From Desulfobacterales bacterium (lineage in GTDB: Bacteria > Desulfobacterota > Desulfobacteria > Desulfobacterales > JANQIE01): a stretch of DNA of 64,000 nt. The stretch's first letter is position 1. Every line of letters begins with the position of its first letter. Of this stretch, positions 2,176 to 44,449 are shown piece after piece. The position numbers and the translations under genes were made by a program. A model generated the notes under the pieces. The model made no database searches. It had not been told where the DNA came from and was given only the letters and a program-made list of their open reading frames with translations. Location: contig JANQIE010000085.1 of NCBI GenBank assembly GCA_028282295.1, forward strand, positions 16,590-80,589. Direction: 5' to 3'.

Positions 2176-2243
2176 TCATGCCGGACTTGATCCGGCATCC
2201 AGAATTGACACTTGATGCCGGCGCTCGCCGGGATCACAATTTT
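2176..2243. repeat. REP-like intergenic palindromic repeat
   Basis: gtcatgccggacttgatccggcatccag...gatgccggcgctcgccgggatcac, a common short dispersed palindrome type; a related piece lies at about 13001-13021. Confidence 0.6.
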
Positions 2244-2271
2244 AAAGGTATTTTATTGCCGGGTTAATAAT

Positions 2272-3111
2272 ATGCTTCAAACGCTTTCCCTGGCCTATTC
2301 CACTTGCCCGAATGACACGTTTCTTTTTTACGCCCTGGCTCACGCCAAGGTTACGGTGCCGCAAATCGGTTTCGATATTGTTTTGGATGATGTGGAAACC
2401 CTGAATCAGGCCGCCCGGCACGGCCGTTACGACATCACCAAAATGTCCTTTGCCGCGTTGGGACACTTGCAGGATCGCTATGCGTTGCTGCGCAGTGGAG
2501 CGGCTTTGGGCCGCGGCTGCGGTCCATTGGTGGTGGCCCGGCCCGGTTTCGATATCAACCGTCTGGCGCAAACACCGGTGGCGGTGCCCGGCTTGTGGAC
2601 CACGGCTCATTTGCTGCTGGCGCTCTACTTGGACGACGTTCCGAATGCACAACCGATGGTGTTCGATCAGGTCATGCCGGCGGTCAAAGCCGGCGCGTAC
2701 CGGGCCGGGGTGATTATTCATGAAGGCCGCTTTACCTATCCGGCTTACGGTTTGCAGTGTCTGGTCGATTTAGGACAGTGGTGGGAGGCCCAGACCGGTT
2801 TGCCGATTCCGCTGGGGGCCATTGCCATACGGCGCAATATGCCCGGCAAGACCGCTGCCCGGATCGAAAAGGCCATCCGGGCCAGTTTGACGTTTGCCCG
2901 CCGCCATCCGGCGCAAGTCCGGCCCTACATCGATCATCACGCTCAAGAGATGGCCCCGGATGTGGTGGATCAACACATCGAATTGTATGTCAATGATTTT
3001 ACGCTCGATCTTGGCGACGAGGGGAGGCGGGCCGTGGCAACATTGTTTGAGCGGGGCCGTCGCAACGGTGTTCTGCCCCCTGGTTCACGGCCGTTGTTTA
3101 TCGCAGATTAA
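2272..3111 (+). CDS. mqnD: 1,4-dihydroxy-6-naphthoate synthase
   Basis: LSLAYSTCPNDTFLFYALAHAKV... typical MqnD N-terminus; downstream of mqnB. Confidence 0.9.
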   Translation: MLQTLSLAYSTCPNDTFLFYALAHAKVTVPQIGFDIVLDDVETLNQAARHGRYDITKMSFAALGHLQDRYALLRSGAALGRGCGPLVVARPGFDINRLAQTPVAVPGLWTTAHLLLALYLDDVPNAQPMVFDQVMPAVKAGAYRAGVIIHEGRFTYPAYGLQCLVDLGQWWEAQTGLPIPLGAIAIRRNMPGKTAARIEKAIRASLTFARRHPAQVRPYIDHHAQEMAPDVVDQHIELYVNDFTLDLGDEGRRAVATLFERGRRNGVLPPGSRPLFIAD

Positions 3112-3117
3112 GGTGAA

Positions 3118-3978
3118 TTACGCGACAAACGCAGGTTCAACCGGTTTGTCGCACAAACCGTTGACATACGCGAGTTGGAAAAAACAGGTCAGCCCTGCCA
3201 GGTGGCGCGGCGTCAACGCATAGCTTAGATGCTGAAAGTAGGCGCGGCAGCGATTCAGGTCGAGACCGAGCTCGGCCGCGGCCCGTGCGCACAGGTCGCT
3301 CTGGTGGCGGCGGCCCTGTTGGTGTGACTGCGCAAACAGGGATGTCAGGCGCCGGATGCTGTCCGGCTGTTGCGCGGCAAATTGTTTGCGCACGGCCCAC
3401 ACGGCAAAGACAAAGGGCAGCCGGGTGCGGTCATGCCACATTTTCCCCAAATCGTACACATAGCCGAAACTACCGCGCCAGTTATAGCGCAGGGCCGCAT
3501 CACCGATGATCAGGGCGGCATCGATCTGCGTTGATAGACGCTCGGGCGGTCCCACCGGGCCGGTGATGAACCGGGCGTCGATGTCTTCCATCCGCAGGAG
3601 CAGTTTGACCAGGGCGGCGGCCGAGGCCGACTCATCAGTCAGCAAAACAGTGCCGGTCGTCAGTTCACCCATTGGTCTGCGGCTCACCAGCAGCACGCTC
3701 ATCACCTTGCCTTCGCAGGCAATCGATTGACCGGGCATCAGCAGCCAATCGGCCTGATTCAGGGCATACGCCATGGAAGATACCGGACTGACATCCAGAC
3801 GGCTGTCGGCCAGCATCCGGTTCAGAACCGCCGGTGGGTGGTTGTGCAATTGCAGCCAGGCGGGCCGCAACCCGTTGTCCAGGCCGTAGTAAAGCGGAGC
3901 GACGTTCAGGTAGTTGATCCGGCCCAGTTTTACCGGTGTGATTGGTGTCGGCGGTTGATGTGACGTATCTGTTTTCAT
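3118..3978 (-). CDS. mqnA: Chorismate dehydratase (menaquinone biosynthesis)
   Basis: KLGRINYLNVAPLYYGLD typical MqnA N-terminus; clustered with mqnC/mqnE. Confidence 0.88.
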   Translation of the reverse strand: MKTDTSHQPPTPITPVKLGRINYLNVAPLYYGLDNGLRPAWLQLHNHPPAVLNRMLADSRLDVSPVSSMAYALNQADWLLMPGQSIACEGKVMSVLLVSRRPMGELTTGTVLLTDESASAAALVKLLLRMEDIDARFITGPVGPPERLSTQIDAALIIGDAALRYNWRGSFGYVYDLGKMWHDRTRLPFVFAVWAVRKQFAAQQPDSIRRLTSLFAQSHQQGRRHQSDLCARAAAELGLDLNRCRAYFQHLSYALTPRHLAGLTCFFQLAYVNGLCDKPVEPAFVA

Positions 3979-3982
3979 GGTG

Positions 3983-5146
3983 TTATTGGGTGTTGTGCAC
4001 GATGGTTTCAATCACCGCCCGGCGGTGGTTACAATGCAGCGGCCGATAAACCGGGGCGTCTTTTTTACCGGGTGTCAGGGTACCCCAGGCGGCATGCAGC
4101 CCCAACGCCCGCGCGCCGTGGCAGGTGGCCATGGCAAACAACACGGCCGGGTCGACCTGCTGATAGGACCGGGCGGCAAAGGCCAACTCGTCCCACATGC
4201 TAAGCGACCGCACGCTCGCCAAACTGTCGGTGCCCAACGCCGGTTGCAAGCCCGCGGCCAGCATGCGTTGCAGGTCTGGCAACCGCTGGTGCAGATTTTG
4301 ATTGCTGCGCGGGCAGAGGCAAACCGCCGTTTGTCTATTTGCCAGAACCGCTATGTCCGTATCGTCGGCGTGCAGGGCATGAACCACCAGGGTGTCGCGA
4401 TCCAGCAGGCCGAGCCGGTCCAGGTACTGGATAGGCGAGGCCGCCGGTAGCGGCCAGTCGTCGTGATCGATCCCGCGCGACTTTATGAAATCGCTCCAGG
4501 CGCCCTGGCCGGTGGTGATGAATGCCGTCTCGGCGGCGGATTCGGACACGTGAATTGCCATGGGGCGTTTTTGCTGCTGTGTTATCGCCTTGATTTTTTG
4601 CAGCAGTTTCGGTGCAGTCGTGTGCGGGGCGTGCCCGGCCAGCGAAGTGGTGACAAGCCCGGTGTCCGGTTGCCGGTCCCCAAATGAGGCCGTCGTCCCC
4701 AAATGCTCCTGAAACCGGATACCGGCCAAACCGGACTGCTCCATGGCCGGTCCACTCAATCCCAAGGTCGAAACGTCGCCCACGACCCGGCAACCCGATG
4801 CATACAATCCCTTGGCGGCCCCGGCAGCCCCGGCGGCAAGGTCCTGACGGTTGACGGTTTCACGTTGGGCGAGCAGCTCGCGCACCCAGGTTTCGAATCC
4901 TTGCGTCCGGCAAACCTGGCCGTGAAGGGCACTGAGTTCCAAATGGGTGTGTGTGTTGACCAGACCGGGGGTCAGGATACCCGGGCCATGGTCGACTACC
5001 CGGACACCTGAAGGCCCGTGCCCTTTGCCAACATCGACAATGCGGCCGTTGACGGCATGGATGTAACCGGTTTCGATGATGATTTCCGGTGTTGCCACAA
5101 CCCATCCGGCTTTATGAACCCTTGCGTGTAAATGGTTGGTTTCCAT
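3983..5146 (-). CDS. Amidohydrolase family protein, probable aminodeoxyfutalosine deaminase
   Basis: GILTPGLVNTHTHLELSAL metal-binding motif, LVVHALHADD, CPRSNQNLH; position in the mqn cluster. Confidence 0.78.
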   Translation of the reverse strand: METNHLHARVHKAGWVVATPEIIIETGYIHAVNGRIVDVGKGHGPSGVRVVDHGPGILTPGLVNTHTHLELSALHGQVCRTQGFETWVRELLAQRETVNRQDLAAGAAGAAKGLYASGCRVVGDVSTLGLSGPAMEQSGLAGIRFQEHLGTTASFGDRQPDTGLVTTSLAGHAPHTTAPKLLQKIKAITQQQKRPMAIHVSESAAETAFITTGQGAWSDFIKSRGIDHDDWPLPAASPIQYLDRLGLLDRDTLVVHALHADDTDIAVLANRQTAVCLCPRSNQNLHQRLPDLQRMLAAGLQPALGTDSLASVRSLSMWDELAFAARSYQQVDPAVLFAMATCHGARALGLHAAWGTLTPGKKDAPVYRPLHCNHRRAVIETIVHNTQ

Positions 5147-5153
5147 GCGTTGC

Positions 5154-6221
<1,068 letters not shown>

Positions 6222-6228
6222 GATCTGC

Positions 6229-7347
6229 CTATTCGATGCCGCCCGCGCGGACCGTTGGCCCGGTGGTGGCGACCGGTTGATAAAAAGAATCGCGTTGCAC
6301 CGGCTTAAAACCGGCCTTGGCGATTAAACGGCGCAGTTGTGACGGGTTCAAGCCCTTGGCGGTGACGGCGCCGGCAGTGTGGGTGATTTTTTCCTCGATA
6401 ATGGTGCCGTCCAGGTCGTCGGCGCCGAAGGCCAGCGCGGTCTGCGCCGTTTTCTCGCCGATCATGACCCAGTAGGCTTTGATATGCGCGAAATTGTCCA
6501 ATATCAGCCGGGCGATGGCCACGGCTTTTAAATCGTCGAAACCGGTGGTGGGGTGCAGGTGGCTTAAACCGGTGTTGGCGGCGTGAAACGCCAGCGGGAT
6601 AAACGCTGAGAAACCGTTGGTTTCGCTCTGCAAGCTGCGCAGGCGCAGCAGGTGTTCGACGCGTTCGGCGTCGGTTTCGATGTGTCCGTAAAGCATGGTG
6701 GCGTTGGCGCTCAGGCCGGCCCGGTGTACCGCGCGCATGACTTCCAGCCAGCGGCGGTAGCCGATTTTGCGGGGAAACAGCCGGTCGTGGATGCGGTCGC
6801 TCATGACTTCGGCGCCCCCCCCCGGCAACATGGCTAAGCCCGCCGCCTTGAGCCGGGCGATGGTTGCATCCAGGCCGAGCCTGGATATGGCGGCCAAGTG
6901 GTCGATTTCCACGGCGGTGAAGGCTTTAATGGTGGCTTTGGGCCGAATCTCACGAATGGTCGCCAGCAGGTCAAGATAGTAGGTGAGGGGTAATTCCGGG
7001 TTCAGGCCGCCCACCACATGGATTTCAGTGATCGGTTCATCAATGCGGGACAGCAGTTTGGCGCGAACGGCCTCACGATCCAGGGTGAAGGTGTCAGGGG
7101 CGTCCTGATCCTGTCCGTAGGCGCAAAATTTGCAGCGGTTTGCGCAGATATTGGTATAGTTGAGGTGCTGGTTGTAAACGAAATAGGCGCGGTTGCCGTG
7201 ACGTCGGCGGCGCATGAAGTCGGCCATGCGGCCGATGCCGATGATGTCGTTGCTGCGGTAAAGCCGGAGGCCGTCCTCGAAATCGAGGGACCGGTCTGCG
7301 TGTACTTTTTCAAATATCGGCAGCAGATGTTTGTCGAGAACCTGCAT
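6229..7347 (-). CDS. mqnE: Aminofutalosine synthase (radical SAM)
   Basis: NYTNICANRCKFCAYG radical-SAM motif, MLPGGGAEV; MqnE-type sequence. Confidence 0.9.
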   Translation of the reverse strand: MQVLDKHLLPIFEKVHADRSLDFEDGLRLYRSNDIIGIGRMADFMRRRRHGNRAYFVYNQHLNYTNICANRCKFCAYGQDQDAPDTFTLDREAVRAKLLSRIDEPITEIHVVGGLNPELPLTYYLDLLATIREIRPKATIKAFTAVEIDHLAAISRLGLDATIARLKAAGLAMLPGGGAEVMSDRIHDRLFPRKIGYRRWLEVMRAVHRAGLSANATMLYGHIETDAERVEHLLRLRSLQSETNGFSAFIPLAFHAANTGLSHLHPTTGFDDLKAVAIARLILDNFAHIKAYWVMIGEKTAQTALAFGADDLDGTIIEEKITHTAGAVTAKGLNPSQLRRLIAKAGFKPVQRDSFYQPVATTGPTVRAGGIE

Positions 7348-7547
7348 GTTCTTTTTATTATTACAATTATTGGATAGATAGTGTTGGCCCCGGAAAAGTG
7401 ACCAGGTGGTCATTTAATAGCGGCAACAGTCCGGTTTGGCAAGCTTTTTATTGACTTTCAAAGGGGCCGACGAAATTATAGATGCCTTCAAAAGCGAGTC
7501 GTGCTAATCTGTTCCTGCACACGCTGTGATTATAAGAGGTAATATCC

Positions 7548-8744
7548 ATGACCGACCCCTTCAAAACCCGTGATTGCTGCCCGTCGAAATCTTCGGCTGG
7601 CGGCTGTGAAACGTCCACCATATCGCTGATGGATCATATGCCGTCCAATGAACCCTGTTGCGGACCGGATCTGGCGTGCGCTAGCCGTCCGGATGAAAGA
7701 CCGGGCTACATTCTGTGGCATTTTGTCGATAAATTTATTCGCACCCCTGCCGGGCCGGTGCCGCAGGTGCAAACCCAATTGACGCGCCGGGATGTGCGCG
7801 GCAATCTGGCGGTGCGACTGGGCATTAATCGATTTGAGTACAAGGTGGCCCCGGGGCTATATTGCGTTGGAACCCCCGGAGCGGAGGCCCCGGTGGTGGT
7901 GACCGCCAATTATAAGCTGACTTTCGATGCGGTGCGCCGGTCCCTGCATTGCCGGGATGCCTGGATTCTGGTGCTGGAAACGCATGGTATCAATGTCTGG
8001 TGCGCGGCGGGCAAAGGGACGTTCGGCACCCAGGAGATCATTCGACGCGTCAAGGCCACTGAATTGGCACAGGTGGTAAACCACCGCCGTTTGATCGTGC
8101 CGCAATTGGGTGCGGTGGGGGTTGCGGCTCACCTGGTCAGCAAGGGCTGCGGTTTCAAGGTGATCTGGGGACCGGTTCGCGCCGAGGATTTAAATGAATT
8201 TCTCGCCGCTGGCAACAAGGCCGGCCCGCAAATGCGCAAGGTGACTTTTACTCTGTGGGAACGGTTGGTGCTTGTGCCGGTGGAAATCAATAACCTGGGC
8301 CGGCATTTGTTGTGGCTGACACTAGCCCTTTTCGTCCTGTCGGGTATCGGCGGCGGCATATTTTCAATCACCGCCGCTCTTGAAAGGTCTGTCATGGGGT
8401 TGGCGGCGGTTGCTGCGGGCATCCTTGCCGGCGCCGTGGCCGCGCCGGTATTGTTGCCCTGGCTTCCGGGCCGCGCCTTTGCGGTAAAAGGGACGGTGAC
8501 CGGCGCCGTTGCGGGACTGCTTGTGTTGATATTGTTCTGGGCGCGGGCCGGCACGCTGGAGCTGCTGGCGTTGCTGTGTTTCACTGTTGCGCTGAGCAGT
8601 TTTCTGGCGATGAATTTTACCGGGTCGACACCGTTTACGTCGCCCACCGGCGTTGAAAAAGAGATGCGCAAGGCAATACCGGTGCAACTGTTGGCGGTTG
8701 GGTTGTCGGCCGTGGCCTGGATCGGGGCGGGTTTCGCAGGGTAG
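7548..8744 (+). CDS. hgcA: Mercury methylation corrinoid protein HgcA
   Basis: Cap-helix motif NVWCAAGKGTFGT (consensus N(V/I)WCA(A/G)GK), C-terminal multi-TM domain, followed by an HgcB-like ferredoxin. Confidence 0.93.
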   Translation: MTDPFKTRDCCPSKSSAGGCETSTISLMDHMPSNEPCCGPDLACASRPDERPGYILWHFVDKFIRTPAGPVPQVQTQLTRRDVRGNLAVRLGINRFEYKVAPGLYCVGTPGAEAPVVVTANYKLTFDAVRRSLHCRDAWILVLETHGINVWCAAGKGTFGTQEIIRRVKATELAQVVNHRRLIVPQLGAVGVAAHLVSKGCGFKVIWGPVRAEDLNEFLAAGNKAGPQMRKVTFTLWERLVLVPVEINNLGRHLLWLTLALFVLSGIGGGIFSITAALERSVMGLAAVAAGILAGAVAAPVLLPWLPGRAFAVKGTVTGAVAGLLVLILFWARAGTLELLALLCFTVALSSFLAMNFTGSTPFTSPTGVEKEMRKAIPVQLLAVGLSAVAWIGAGFAG

Positions 8745-8808
8745 GATCGCCGGAATCAGAATGTTGCCCCCTCTACCATATAAGAATAGAAGAAAGGGAT
8801 AATGGAAG

Positions 8809-9099
8809 ATGCAGCGATTTCGCTATTTACCGGAGGTAACCACCTTGAAATTGAATGCCGGGGCCTGCGTTGGTTGCGGCATGTGCGAGGCGGTCTGTCC
8901 GCACACGGTTTTCGCCGTCCATGAGCGCAAGGCCCGGATCGTTGATCTGGACGGCTGCATGGAGTGCGGCGCCTGTGCCATCAATTGTCCTGCTGAGGCG
9001 ATCACGGTAACGCCGGGTGTTGGTTGTGCCGGCTACATCATCCAATCCTGGATCAAAGGCAAGGAAAATGCCGCTTGCGGCGGACCGGGATGTTGTTGA
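8809..9099 (+). CDS. hgcB: Mercury methylation ferredoxin HgcB
   Basis: Two CxxCxxCxxxCP clusters (CVGCGMCEAVCP, CMECGACAINCP), conserved GVGCAGY cysteine, terminal Cys pair GPGCC; directly downstream of hgcA. Confidence 0.93.
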   Translation: MQRFRYLPEVTTLKLNAGACVGCGMCEAVCPHTVFAVHERKARIVDLDGCMECGACAINCPAEAITVTPGVGCAGYIIQSWIKGKENAACGGPGCC

Positions 9100-36279: not shown

Positions 36280-39200
36280 TTATAAAAGATGTTGCACCAG
36301 CGCCCGGGTTGCTTCATCAGGTGGGGAGGAGATGGTTTTGCGCAGGGCTTTTTGGCAGGCCCGGAACACCCACAGGGCTTCGTTGGGCCGCTGCTGGTCG
36401 AGATACAGACGGATCAGTTCGCGGTAGCTGTTCTCAAAAGACGGATCGATCTGCATTAGGGTTTGGTAGCACCAGATGGCCCGGTTTACGGCATTGTTGG
36501 AAAGGTGAATGTCTGCCAGAGCGAGGTGCAGTTGGCGGTGTTTCTGCTTTAGTTTTTCGCGCCGCGTCTTGACCCATTCGGCATACCGTTCCTCCGGAAG
36601 AAAATCGCCTTCATATAAATCACGGGCCTGCTCGTAGTAAACGATGGCTTCTCTTTTGCGGCGCTGTCGCAGTTTATTTTCCGCCTGGCGGCACAATTCC
36701 TCGAAGTGATCGCAGTCCACTTGCAGGTGGTGGGGGTCAAGTGAGATGAGATTGTCCTTGAGGGTGATATACGATGCGCTGGTTTTATGTTTGAGATCTT
36801 TTTCCAGAGCGGCGCGCAGCCGGTGCAGGGTGACTTTGAAAACTTTTTCGGCGGTCGCAAGCGAGCTTTTCGGCCAAAGGTCTTCGAATATAAGTTCCTT
36901 GGGGATTTGTATGCCGCCTCGCGCCACGATGACTTTAAGTAAACGGAACGGTTTGCGGCGGTTCAGCGATTTAGGGGCCATCGCCCGGCCGTCTTTGATA
37001 ATTCTAAAACCGCCTAGTGTCCGGACTTCCAATGATGACAGCCGACGGCGCGTAATCTGTTTTTTTATGATTCGGGCCACTTTTTGGATACACCTGCTTG
37101 GGTGACTTTCCAGCCGGCTGAGCTCGCCCTTGATCGCAGGGCTGTTGTTTTGCACCAGAATACTGTCGATAAACTGAACCGCCCCTTTTACTTTCAGCTC
37201 CGCCGCCAGGGCACAGGCGCCGACAAAATCGGCGGGACTCAAAATCAGGTTGTGAATGTAGGCACGTTGTTTGAAAATTACAATTCCCCGGGCCAGTTGG
37301 GATTTGGCTTCCGGCTGGTTGTCACGGGCAAATTCCAGCAGCCCCAAAGCAAGATGCATTTCGGCAAGCGAAAGGTGACTTTCGATCGCTTTGAAATAGG
37401 CCAGCGCTTCGGTGAGTTGTTTTTGGGCCGTTTGAAACTTTTTGCAATGGCAGTAGAGCAGGCCCAAGACCCCCTTGGCGCGCAGGAAGTGGTGTTTGGA
37501 CGCCCCTTTCTGGTCGGCCAAAAAGGCGATCGATTTTTCCATGTAGTGGATCGCCGTGTCAAAATCGGCGTTGAAATAATGGTATTTGCCTAACAGCCCC
37601 CAACCGAGACCTTTCAAAAAGTGATTTCTAACCGAATCGGTCAGGTCCAGCAACTGTTCGGCGGATGTCTTGACGGCATCCAATTTTCCCACGGAAAGAC
37701 GCAGAATGTTCTTAAAGTAGAATACCGAGGGTTGCAGCGAATTATAGCCGTAAGCCTCGATCAATTCTTCCAATTCCATGATATAGGCGTCGGCCTGTTT
37801 GAAATTGCCGCTGTAGATATGAAACGAGGATATACTAAGCAGATAACCGGCCTTGATTTCCGGGTCGTTGGCGTCGAGCAGATCGTCGATGCGGTCAAAG
37901 AGATCGGCGGCTTCCCTGAATTCGCCGAGAAAGGTGTGGCCGAACACACAATAAACCAGCGCTTTGGCCTGGATATCGCGGTCGCGTAAGTGTTGACCCA
38001 GAACAAACGCGGTCCGGCATGCGCGCAGGCCGGCGCGCACGTCGCCGGTGCCTCGGATGTGGCCAAGGCCGACCTGGAGCCATAACACCGCAGTTTCGTT
38101 GGTCTGCTCTTCCTTTGAGGGCCGCGCGAGTAATGCTTCCGCTTGTTTGAGAAGTTTTTCAACAGGCACCTTGAAGTAACCACCTTGAAAAGAGTATTCG
38201 ATCAAATTGGCCAGTGCCAGCATCCGGCCGGTGTGGTTGTTTTGTTTTTGAAAAAGCGTGCAGGCGTCATGCAGGCAGGCGACCCGGTTTTTGACATCGG
38301 CAAAGCGCCGGGTTTTGGCTTTCATGAACAACAGCCAGGGAGATTGTTCGATTTGGGCGACCGGTAATTTTTGCAACCAGCTTTCCAGATCCGCACCCCG
38401 GCCCATGGACAAGAGCGACAAACCGACGCGTTCGATAACTTTTACGGCCAGTTTGGGCGCTTCGGCATGCAGGTAGAAGTGAACCGCATTTTCAAGTTCG
38501 TTGCGTCGTTCGTAAGTCGTGGCCGCGGCCATGAAGAGCCAGCGGCGGTCCTCTTGGGTCAACACGGTTTGGCATTTATACTGTAAAAATTCCTTAAACA
38601 ATTGATGGAAACGGTAGACGATTCGGTTGTTAGCGTTCACCAGCGATTGAGTGAAGAAATTGTTTTGTGCCAGATTATAAAAAATGGTTTGGGCGTCCTT
38701 GCGCCCCAGGCAGGTATTGACAAGATCGGTATCCACATGGTCAAAAACCGATGACCGGATGAGCAGGCTTTGCGTCGGCTTGGGCAGGGTCGCAAAAATC
38801 TCCTCGCTGAAATAGTTGAAAATATCTTCCGGAAGCCGGTGGTCGGGGTGTTGGTGAAGATCCACTTCGCCGTTTTGAGTTGGAAAGCGGTTGTACATTT
38901 CGGTTACCAGGATAAGCCCGCCGATCCACCCCTCGGTTTTGGTGTGAATTTCAGCGCTTTTTTCCGGTGAATACGCATTCGGCAGATCCTGGTTTAAAAA
39001 AGTCCGTGATTCTTCCAGCGTCAGGGCCAGTTCAGTATTGTCGACGATTAAAACCTGACGCTTCAGTTTCAGACGCTGAACATTGAAGGGCGGGTGATTG
39101 CGTGAAAGAACCAGAAACTGAACCTGGGGAGGGGAGTCTATAACGATGCGCTGCAGTAATTCCAGACTTGGTGCCCCGGCCGGTATTTTTTCCAGGCCGT

Positions 39201-39615
39201 CCAAAACGATAAGCATCGGCTCTGTTTTGGCGGGAATCAGGTCGTGGGCCCATTCAGCCAAAAGGGCCTGGTTGCGTTTCAAGCCGATCCAGTTTGAAAT
39301 GCTATGCAGCCAGTTTTGGTGATCGGCCGGTATTGCAAGCGTTTTGAGCGCTTCCAGAAACACATGGCAGAGATTGGCGGTATCACCCTCGGCTGAATTC
39401 AGATTGATCCAGATGGTCCGTTTGCGGGATTTACGGACATAGTCCGCCGCCAGGGTCGATTTGCCCTGCGCGGCCTGACCGATCAGAAAGATGATTTTTT
39501 TGGACGCATTCTGTTTGAGTTTTTGGATAAGGCGCGGGCGTGCGACGATTTTGGGGCAATGTCTCGAAGTTAAGTCGGGTGGTGTAAATTTCGAACTGGG
39601 TGATAACAGGTCCAT
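36280..39615 (-). CDS. MalT-like STAND ATPase with C-terminal winged-helix/BTAD domain
   Basis: GQAAQGKSTLAADYV P-loop; LLIVLDGLEKI-type Walker B; TPR array; C-terminal VRTLGGFRIIKDGRAM...RRKPFRLLKVIVARGG plus BTAD. Confidence 0.87.
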   Translation of the reverse strand: MDLLSPSSKFTPPDLTSRHCPKIVARPRLIQKLKQNASKKIIFLIGQAAQGKSTLAADYVRKSRKRTIWINLNSAEGDTANLCHVFLEALKTLAIPADHQNWLHSISNWIGLKRNQALLAEWAHDLIPAKTEPMLIVLDGLEKIPAGAPSLELLQRIVIDSPPQVQFLVLSRNHPPFNVQRLKLKRQVLIVDNTELALTLEESRTFLNQDLPNAYSPEKSAEIHTKTEGWIGGLILVTEMYNRFPTQNGEVDLHQHPDHRLPEDIFNYFSEEIFATLPKPTQSLLIRSSVFDHVDTDLVNTCLGRKDAQTIFYNLAQNNFFTQSLVNANNRIVYRFHQLFKEFLQYKCQTVLTQEDRRWLFMAAATTYERRNELENAVHFYLHAEAPKLAVKVIERVGLSLLSMGRGADLESWLQKLPVAQIEQSPWLLFMKAKTRRFADVKNRVACLHDACTLFQKQNNHTGRMLALANLIEYSFQGGYFKVPVEKLLKQAEALLARPSKEEQTNETAVLWLQVGLGHIRGTGDVRAGLRACRTAFVLGQHLRDRDIQAKALVYCVFGHTFLGEFREAADLFDRIDDLLDANDPEIKAGYLLSISSFHIYSGNFKQADAYIMELEELIEAYGYNSLQPSVFYFKNILRLSVGKLDAVKTSAEQLLDLTDSVRNHFLKGLGWGLLGKYHYFNADFDTAIHYMEKSIAFLADQKGASKHHFLRAKGVLGLLYCHCKKFQTAQKQLTEALAYFKAIESHLSLAEMHLALGLLEFARDNQPEAKSQLARGIVIFKQRAYIHNLILSPADFVGACALAAELKVKGAVQFIDSILVQNNSPAIKGELSRLESHPSRCIQKVARIIKKQITRRRLSSLEVRTLGGFRIIKDGRAMAPKSLNRRKPFRLLKVIVARGGIQIPKELIFEDLWPKSSLATAEKVFKVTLHRLRAALEKDLKHKTSASYITLKDNLISLDPHHLQVDCDHFEELCRQAENKLRQRRKREAIVYYEQARDLYEGDFLPEERYAEWVKTRREKLKQKHRQLHLALADIHLSNNAVNRAIWCYQTLMQIDPSFENSYRELIRLYLDQQRPNEALWVFRACQKALRKTISSPPDEATRALVQHLL

Positions 39616-43537: not shown

Positions 43538-44449
43538 GTGGTGCTGAAAGTGGCAAAAGAAGACAAGTCCATACAAATCCCGAACGTCGCTGAAATACTG
43601 ATCGAATCCTTGCCGTACATCCGCCGGTTTTACGGCGGCACCATTGTGGTCAAGTACGGCGGGCATGCCATGGTGGATGCGCAGTTAAAGGAAGATTTTG
43701 CCCGCGACATCACCTTGTTGAAATTCATCGGCCTGAATCCGGTGGTGGTTCATGGCGGCGGGCCGCAGATCAACGTAGTGCTGGACCGCATGGGGATCAA
43801 ATCCAAGTTCGTGCGGGGGATGCGGTTGACCGACCAGCCCACCATGGATGTGGTGGAAATGGTGCTCGGCGGTAAGGTGAACAAAGCCATTGTGGCCCAG
43901 ATAAACCGTCAGGGCGGTAAAGCGGTCGGTTTGAGCGGCAAGGACGGCGCCTTGATCCTGGCGGAGAAGTTGAAGATCGTGCATCAGCCCGATGAAAATC
44001 AACCGCCTGAAATCATCGACCCCGGACTTGTCGGCTGTGTGACCCGCATCAATCCGGAGATCATTAATACATTGACGCAACAAGGGTTTGTGCCGATTAT
44101 CGCACCGGTGGGCACCGGTGAGAACGGTGAAACGTTCAACATCAACGCCGATCTGGTAGCCAGTGAAGTGGCCCGGGCCCTGAACGCCCAGCGGTTGATT
44201 CTGCTTACCGATGTTGACGGCGTTCTGGATGCCGCCGGTTCATTGGTGTCTTCCATCGAAGCGCAAACCGCGCAGCAGATGATTGCCGGCCAGCAGATCA
44301 AGGGCGGGATGATTCCCAAGGTCGAGTATGCCTTGAAGGCGGTGACCAACGGGGTTGAAAAGGCCCATATCATCAACGGTACGCGGCGCCACGCCATTTT
44401 GCTTGAACTGTTTACGGATAAGGGGATCGGGACCGAAGTAACCGCTTGA
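43538..44449 (+). CDS. argB: Acetylglutamate kinase
   Basis: [46 protein letters not shown]. Confidence 0.96.

Follow-up and report, generated by a model that had tools for sequence, protein, structure and literature searches.

The closest described counterpart of the gene pair reported here is HgcAB of Pseudodesulfovibrio mercurii ND132 (model 9a0b; PMC7305189, PMC11588087), in which HgcA combines a corrinoid-binding domain and a cap-helix cysteine with five transmembrane helices. The cap cysteine of ND132 HgcA is Cys93 and the protein is active when expressed (PMC11588087); in ND132 HgcB, Cys73 and at least one terminal cysteine are required for full methylation (PMC7305189). Selenoprotein forms of both HgcA and HgcB have already been published (Haft & Gwadz 2023, as cited in PMC11588087), and a review table (PMC13188914) lists the HgcA motif as 'CU' and the HgcB motif as 'GVGU'; selenocysteine at these sites is known and is not new here. 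Two further related systems are the CFeSP large subunit (AcsC/CdhE; 2ycl, 2h9a), which has the corrinoid-binding fold in common with HgcA, and an HgcAB-like fusion protein (NF043039), which carries related corrinoid and ferredoxin domains in a single chain.

Identification and organization of the hgcAB locus

The window, which is the whole stretch of 64,000 nucleotides that was analysed, contains two adjacent open reading frames at exactly the positions where the initial annotation had placed an hgcA-hgcB pair. The features of the locus are:

7548..8744, + strand: hgcA, mercury methylation corrinoid protein, 398 aa (NF040863 profile, fold match)
8809..9099, + strand: hgcB, dicluster ferredoxin, 96 aa (NF040864 profile, sequence)
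7534..7539, + strand: ribosome-binding-like site AAGAGG, 8 nt 5' of the hgcA ATG, located by eye
7451..7479, + strand: promoter-like TTGACT-17-AATTAT, weak (4 matches in the region vs 1.4 expected)
6229-7413, - strand: mqnE, divergent upstream neighbour of hgcA (TIGR03700, 467 bits, above cut-off)

HgcA scored 441.5 bits against the NCBIfam model HgcA_corrinoid (NF040863; cut-off 275, E 1.7e-132) and HgcB scored 122.5 bits against HgcB_ferredoxin (NF040864; cut-off 99, E 4.6e-36), so chance is ruled out for both genes and the hgcAB assignment stands. The models of the CFeSP/CdhD family, which the initial annotation had named as the competing assignment, fit HgcA far worse, with 72.4 bits against CFeSP gamma (cut-off 306) and 46.3 bits against Pfam CdhD over residues 99-190, a superfamily match limited to the corrinoid domain; a CFeSP/CdhD identity is ruled out by these scores. 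An HgcAB-fusion identity is ruled out in the same manner, with 198.1 bits against NF043039 (cut-off 285), and the window carries two separate genes in contrast to the single fusion protein.

The hgcB gene begins 64 nt downstream of hgcA on the same strand, and hgcB is adjacent in nearly all of the hgcA loci of relatives. On the 5' side the pair is divergent from mqnE, as initially described, and on the 3' side the next two genes encode a family-3 solute-binding protein and a hybrid histidine kinase, in that order. None of these adjoining genes (mqnE, solute-binding protein, histidine kinase) encodes an ArsR regulator, unlike in ND132. The absence pointed out in the initial annotation is real; however, an ArsR-like ORF just upstream of hgcA was recognized by eye in 5 of 17 relatives, and its absence is therefore common and unremarkable.

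Other parts of the window were also annotated. Positions 2212-7413 hold a futalosine-pathway menaquinone cluster with two VitK2_biosynth (MqnA/D-like) genes, MqnC and MqnE, together with an amidohydrolase that is close to aminofutalosine deaminase and scores below cut-off. MqnE probably starts at an internal codon (Met23), given that the match to its family covers the protein only from residue 33. In one relative (L064:3430-7389) hgcAB also lies beside an mqn cluster, with a different gene order (mqnD, mqnC, mqnA, mqnE); with this single relative locus showing such neighbours, a conserved hgcAB-mqn link was rejected. On the minus strand at 36280-39615, a 1111-aa protein with AAA and BTAD domains resembles a large SARP-like regulator, and a tRNA-Ser (tga) called by ARAGORN at 44150-44242 falls within a coding stretch, is unconfirmed by Rfam and is probably false.

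The host genome comprises 5.46 Mb in 326 contigs. It encodes a DsrA above the profile cut-off, indicating a sulfate reducer, and its CFeSP is encoded by a separate gene (G000:C96). The host most likely belongs to the Desulfobacterales.

Predicted structure of HgcA and cysteine motifs of HgcB

The AlphaFold model of HgcA (mean pLDDT 81.6) comprises the following parts:

7548..7670, + strand: disordered N-terminal arm, residues 1-41, pLDDT below 50
7725..8213, + strand: corrinoid-binding domain, residues ~60-222, with strands and helices modelled at high pLDDT
7992..8030, + strand: cap helix NVWCAAGKGTFGT, residues 149-161
8001-8003, + strand: codon of cap Cys152, the counterpart of ND132 Cys93
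8253..8738, + strand: membrane domain, five long helices modelled at residues 236-266, 274-301, 311-330, 336-356 and 369-397

The cap helix and the C-terminal multi-helix membrane domain that had been read from the sequence were both recovered in the model. The segment NVWCAAGK at residues 149-156 agrees with the pattern N-V/I-W-C-A-A/G-G-K that contains the cobalt-ligating cysteine, and residues 150-156 are predicted to be helical. In an alignment of 28 HgcA proteins, N149, V150, W151, C152, G155 and K156 are invariant, as are residues of the membrane domain. Structural modelling had been suggested for the corrinoid-binding domain, and it returned a CFeSP-like fold: among PDB entries, the model matched best to the integrative model published for HgcAB (9a0b_A, 52% identity to the modelled ND132 chain, E 3.1e-23), followed by CFeSP structures 2ycl/2h9a with an rmsd of 1.3 A over ~125 columns of the corrinoid domain. 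Unlike CFeSP, the window HgcA has no 4Fe-4S domain or TIM barrel and instead has a membrane domain and the cap-helix cysteine.

The features initially ascribed to HgcB are all present in the sequence, namely two CxxCxxCxxxCP motifs (Cys20/23/26/30 and Cys50/53/56/60), Cys73 within GVGCAGY and a C-terminal cysteine pair (Cys95-Cys96). The cluster cysteines and Cys73 carry the same numbers as in ND132 HgcB, which also ends in a cysteine pair. In three relatives (L014, L016 and L018, in genomes G016, G050 and G035, respectively), HgcB Cys73 is replaced by TGA (GVGU); HgcA has no CC/CU site in two of these, and the loci are too few for a claim of a trade-off.

The N-terminal cysteine site and its exchange with selenocysteine

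With the cap cysteine at position 152 compared to 93 in ND132, the window HgcA carries ~59 extra N-terminal residues, which include two cysteine-containing segments:

7572..7607, + strand: DCCPSKSSAGGC, second Cys-rich stretch, residues 9-20, poorly conserved in aligned relatives
7656..7661, + strand: Cys37-Cys38 (TGT TGC) of EPCCGP, the Cys form of a C-[Cys/Sec] site

Both segments had been put forward as possibly metal-binding, and the alignment of HgcA N-termini in relatives separated them. The segment EPCCGPDLAC (residues 36-45), with C37-C38 inside the disordered arm, corresponds to a conserved chalcogenol (Cys/selenocysteine) site, and 'EPCCGP...ERPGY' is a lineage feature conserved across Desulfobacterota HgcAs and not peculiar to the window gene. 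In contrast, DCCPSKSSAGGC varies and may represent loose cysteines and nothing more.

Among the 127 HgcA genes whose N-terminus could be read, 47 have an in-frame TGA at the position of the second cysteine and 61 have CC, a tally made after the removal of two spurious U calls outside the motif (L135, L136). The apparent frame in Geobacter and numerous other Desulfobacterota starts right after the site, with C-TGA-G-P or S-C-TGA-P-P lying upstream in frame. When the first upstream stop lies 93-112 codons from the cap, it is TGA in 49 of 52 cases, compared to 39 of 74 for first stops at other positions (Fisher p 1.7e-7, shared ancestry ignored). Just after the TGA, a hairpin is found with a mean z of -1.34, whereas a control position 120 nt further along gives -0.05 (Wilcoxon p 5e-9, z scores from base shuffles only and shared ancestry ignored), its apical loop lying at +20 to +22 in 35/47 TGA forms; the hairpin is absent after the site in CC forms (mean z -0.12). 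A start codon in frame lies farther upstream in all TGA forms. An HgcA tree computed with the motif columns left out implies at least six (counting well-supported branches only) to nine changes of the TGA label, and it contains one family (f87) in which CC and CU forms are neighbours (L107 vs L120, L127 and L131). Combined, the TGA stop bias, the hairpin at a fixed distance, the upstream starts and the repeated switches on the tree support selenocysteine at this site.

The motif is missing in 19/125 HgcAs. All 13 of the genomes probed for selA contain it, spanning TGA, CC and motif-less HgcAs. The presence of selB, above cut-off in 51/58 relatives, does not discriminate between the Cys and the Sec forms and was left out as evidence. 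A second Desulfobacterota HgcA clade (including L019, L020, L021, L024, L085 and L087) carries a site of the S-C-U-P-P type instead of C-U-G-P, and the residues after the selenocysteine therefore vary by lineage.

For the window HgcA itself, the second cysteine codon is TGC (7659-7661) and not an in-frame TGA, and the sequence after C37-C38 forms no strong SECIS-like hairpin (z -0.81), so it was rejected as a selenoprotein. The host nevertheless possesses the selenocysteine machinery (selA, selB and tRNA-Sec) despite the Cys form of its HgcA. In the motifs quoted from the selenoprotein work, C-U-G-P aligns with the window C-C-G-P and GVGU with the window HgcB GVGC, and the window proteins differ in having cysteine at both positions. 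Judged by its sequence, C37-C38 is thus the cysteine version of the published selenocysteine site. A wider family of CCGP proteins in the host was considered and rejected, as the codon pattern occurred at counts (57/59) that did not clearly exceed those of the reversed control pattern (41/55).

Proposed mechanism and alternative explanations

The residues found important by mutagenesis or modelling are all present (Cys152, the five-helix domain, two [4Fe-4S] sites, HgcB Cys73 and the terminal cysteine pair). We consider it very probable that the two genes form a genuine hgcAB operon of a sulfate reducer, operating by the proposed methylation mechanism with an accessory N-terminal arm. In this mechanism, HgcA would be a membrane-anchored corrinoid protein with Cys152 ligating cobalt, and HgcB would supply electrons via its two [4Fe-4S] clusters, keeping the cobalt reduced. 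The HgcB Cys73/terminal-CC arm would deliver Hg(II), to which a methyl group from S-adenosylmethionine would be transferred by way of the HgcA cobalt, as in the ND132 biochemistry (PMC11588087). Family membership, key residues, fold and gene order together make mercury methylation by the host a well-supported prediction.

Some hgcAB carriers may not methylate mercury. A true hgcAB pair could also have a native role in arsenic or other organometal chemistry, with methylmercury arising as a by-product or not being produced by the host at all; the ArsR regulation and arsenic response of ND132 hgcAB (PMC10349881) and the ArsR-like ORFs upstream of hgcA in relatives point in this direction, whereas the window pair has no ars gene beside it and retains every residue needed for mercury methylation. 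We regard such a role as unlikely, while giving it real weight.

Mercury methylation by the operon remains the preferred reading, and within it the role of the HgcA arm was considered separately. Most likely, the flexible arm would bind a soft metal, for example Hg(II), or hand it on, with C37-C38 serving as its reactive thiol/selenol pair. The arm would be accessory since a minority of HgcAs have no such site, and the annotated ND132 HgcA, with its cap cysteine at 93, has no arm, indicating that the arm is dispensable for activity there. A more specific proposal, offered tentatively as a possibility, is that in most Desulfobacterota HgcAs a mobile Cys-Cys/Cys-Sec arm loads Hg(II) onto the corrinoid centre or takes it from there, partnering the HgcB tail.

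The arm might instead be a redox (disulfide/selenylsulfide) switch or a reductant site for the corrinoid or product and not a metal ligand. Cys/Sec exchange is typical of redox-active cysteines and the C-C/C-U pair is vicinal, but the arm is disordered with no thioredoxin-like fold around the pair, and we hold this to be a rather doubtful alternative. That the N-terminal cysteine segments are functionless disordered sequence appears improbable: the predicted disorder of residues 1-41, the variability of DCCPSKSSAGGC, the activity of ND132 without the arm and the HgcAs without the motif would all agree with it, yet most Desulfobacterota HgcAs retain the CC/CU site, and without selection the exchange of its second position for TGA together with a SECIS-like hairpin would be difficult to maintain. 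Finally, the idea that HgcA is a Wood-Ljungdahl corrinoid protein of the CFeSP/CdhD type, with which the Pfam CdhD match and the CFeSP structural matches to the corrinoid domain agree, has a negligible chance of being correct against the profile scores, the membrane domain, the HgcB partner and the host's own CFeSP gene elsewhere in the genome.

Implications

The window HgcAB is an ordinary representative of the known family, and its N-terminal arm is the one feature of further biological interest. The pair adds one more likely methylmercury producer among the sulfate reducers, and the odd Cys-rich start of its HgcA is explained as the Cys counterpart of a selenocysteine site that was already published. 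The Cys/Sec site has been swapped several times between lineages and is therefore probably functional. If the arm does load Hg(II), it would represent a mercury-delivery step, partly selenium-dependent, that has so far gone unmeasured because the annotated ND132 form used in purified-enzyme work has no arm. For the UGA-form genes, an ordinary ORF call starts past the UGA and loses the arm, which is relevant to databases and to expression constructs.
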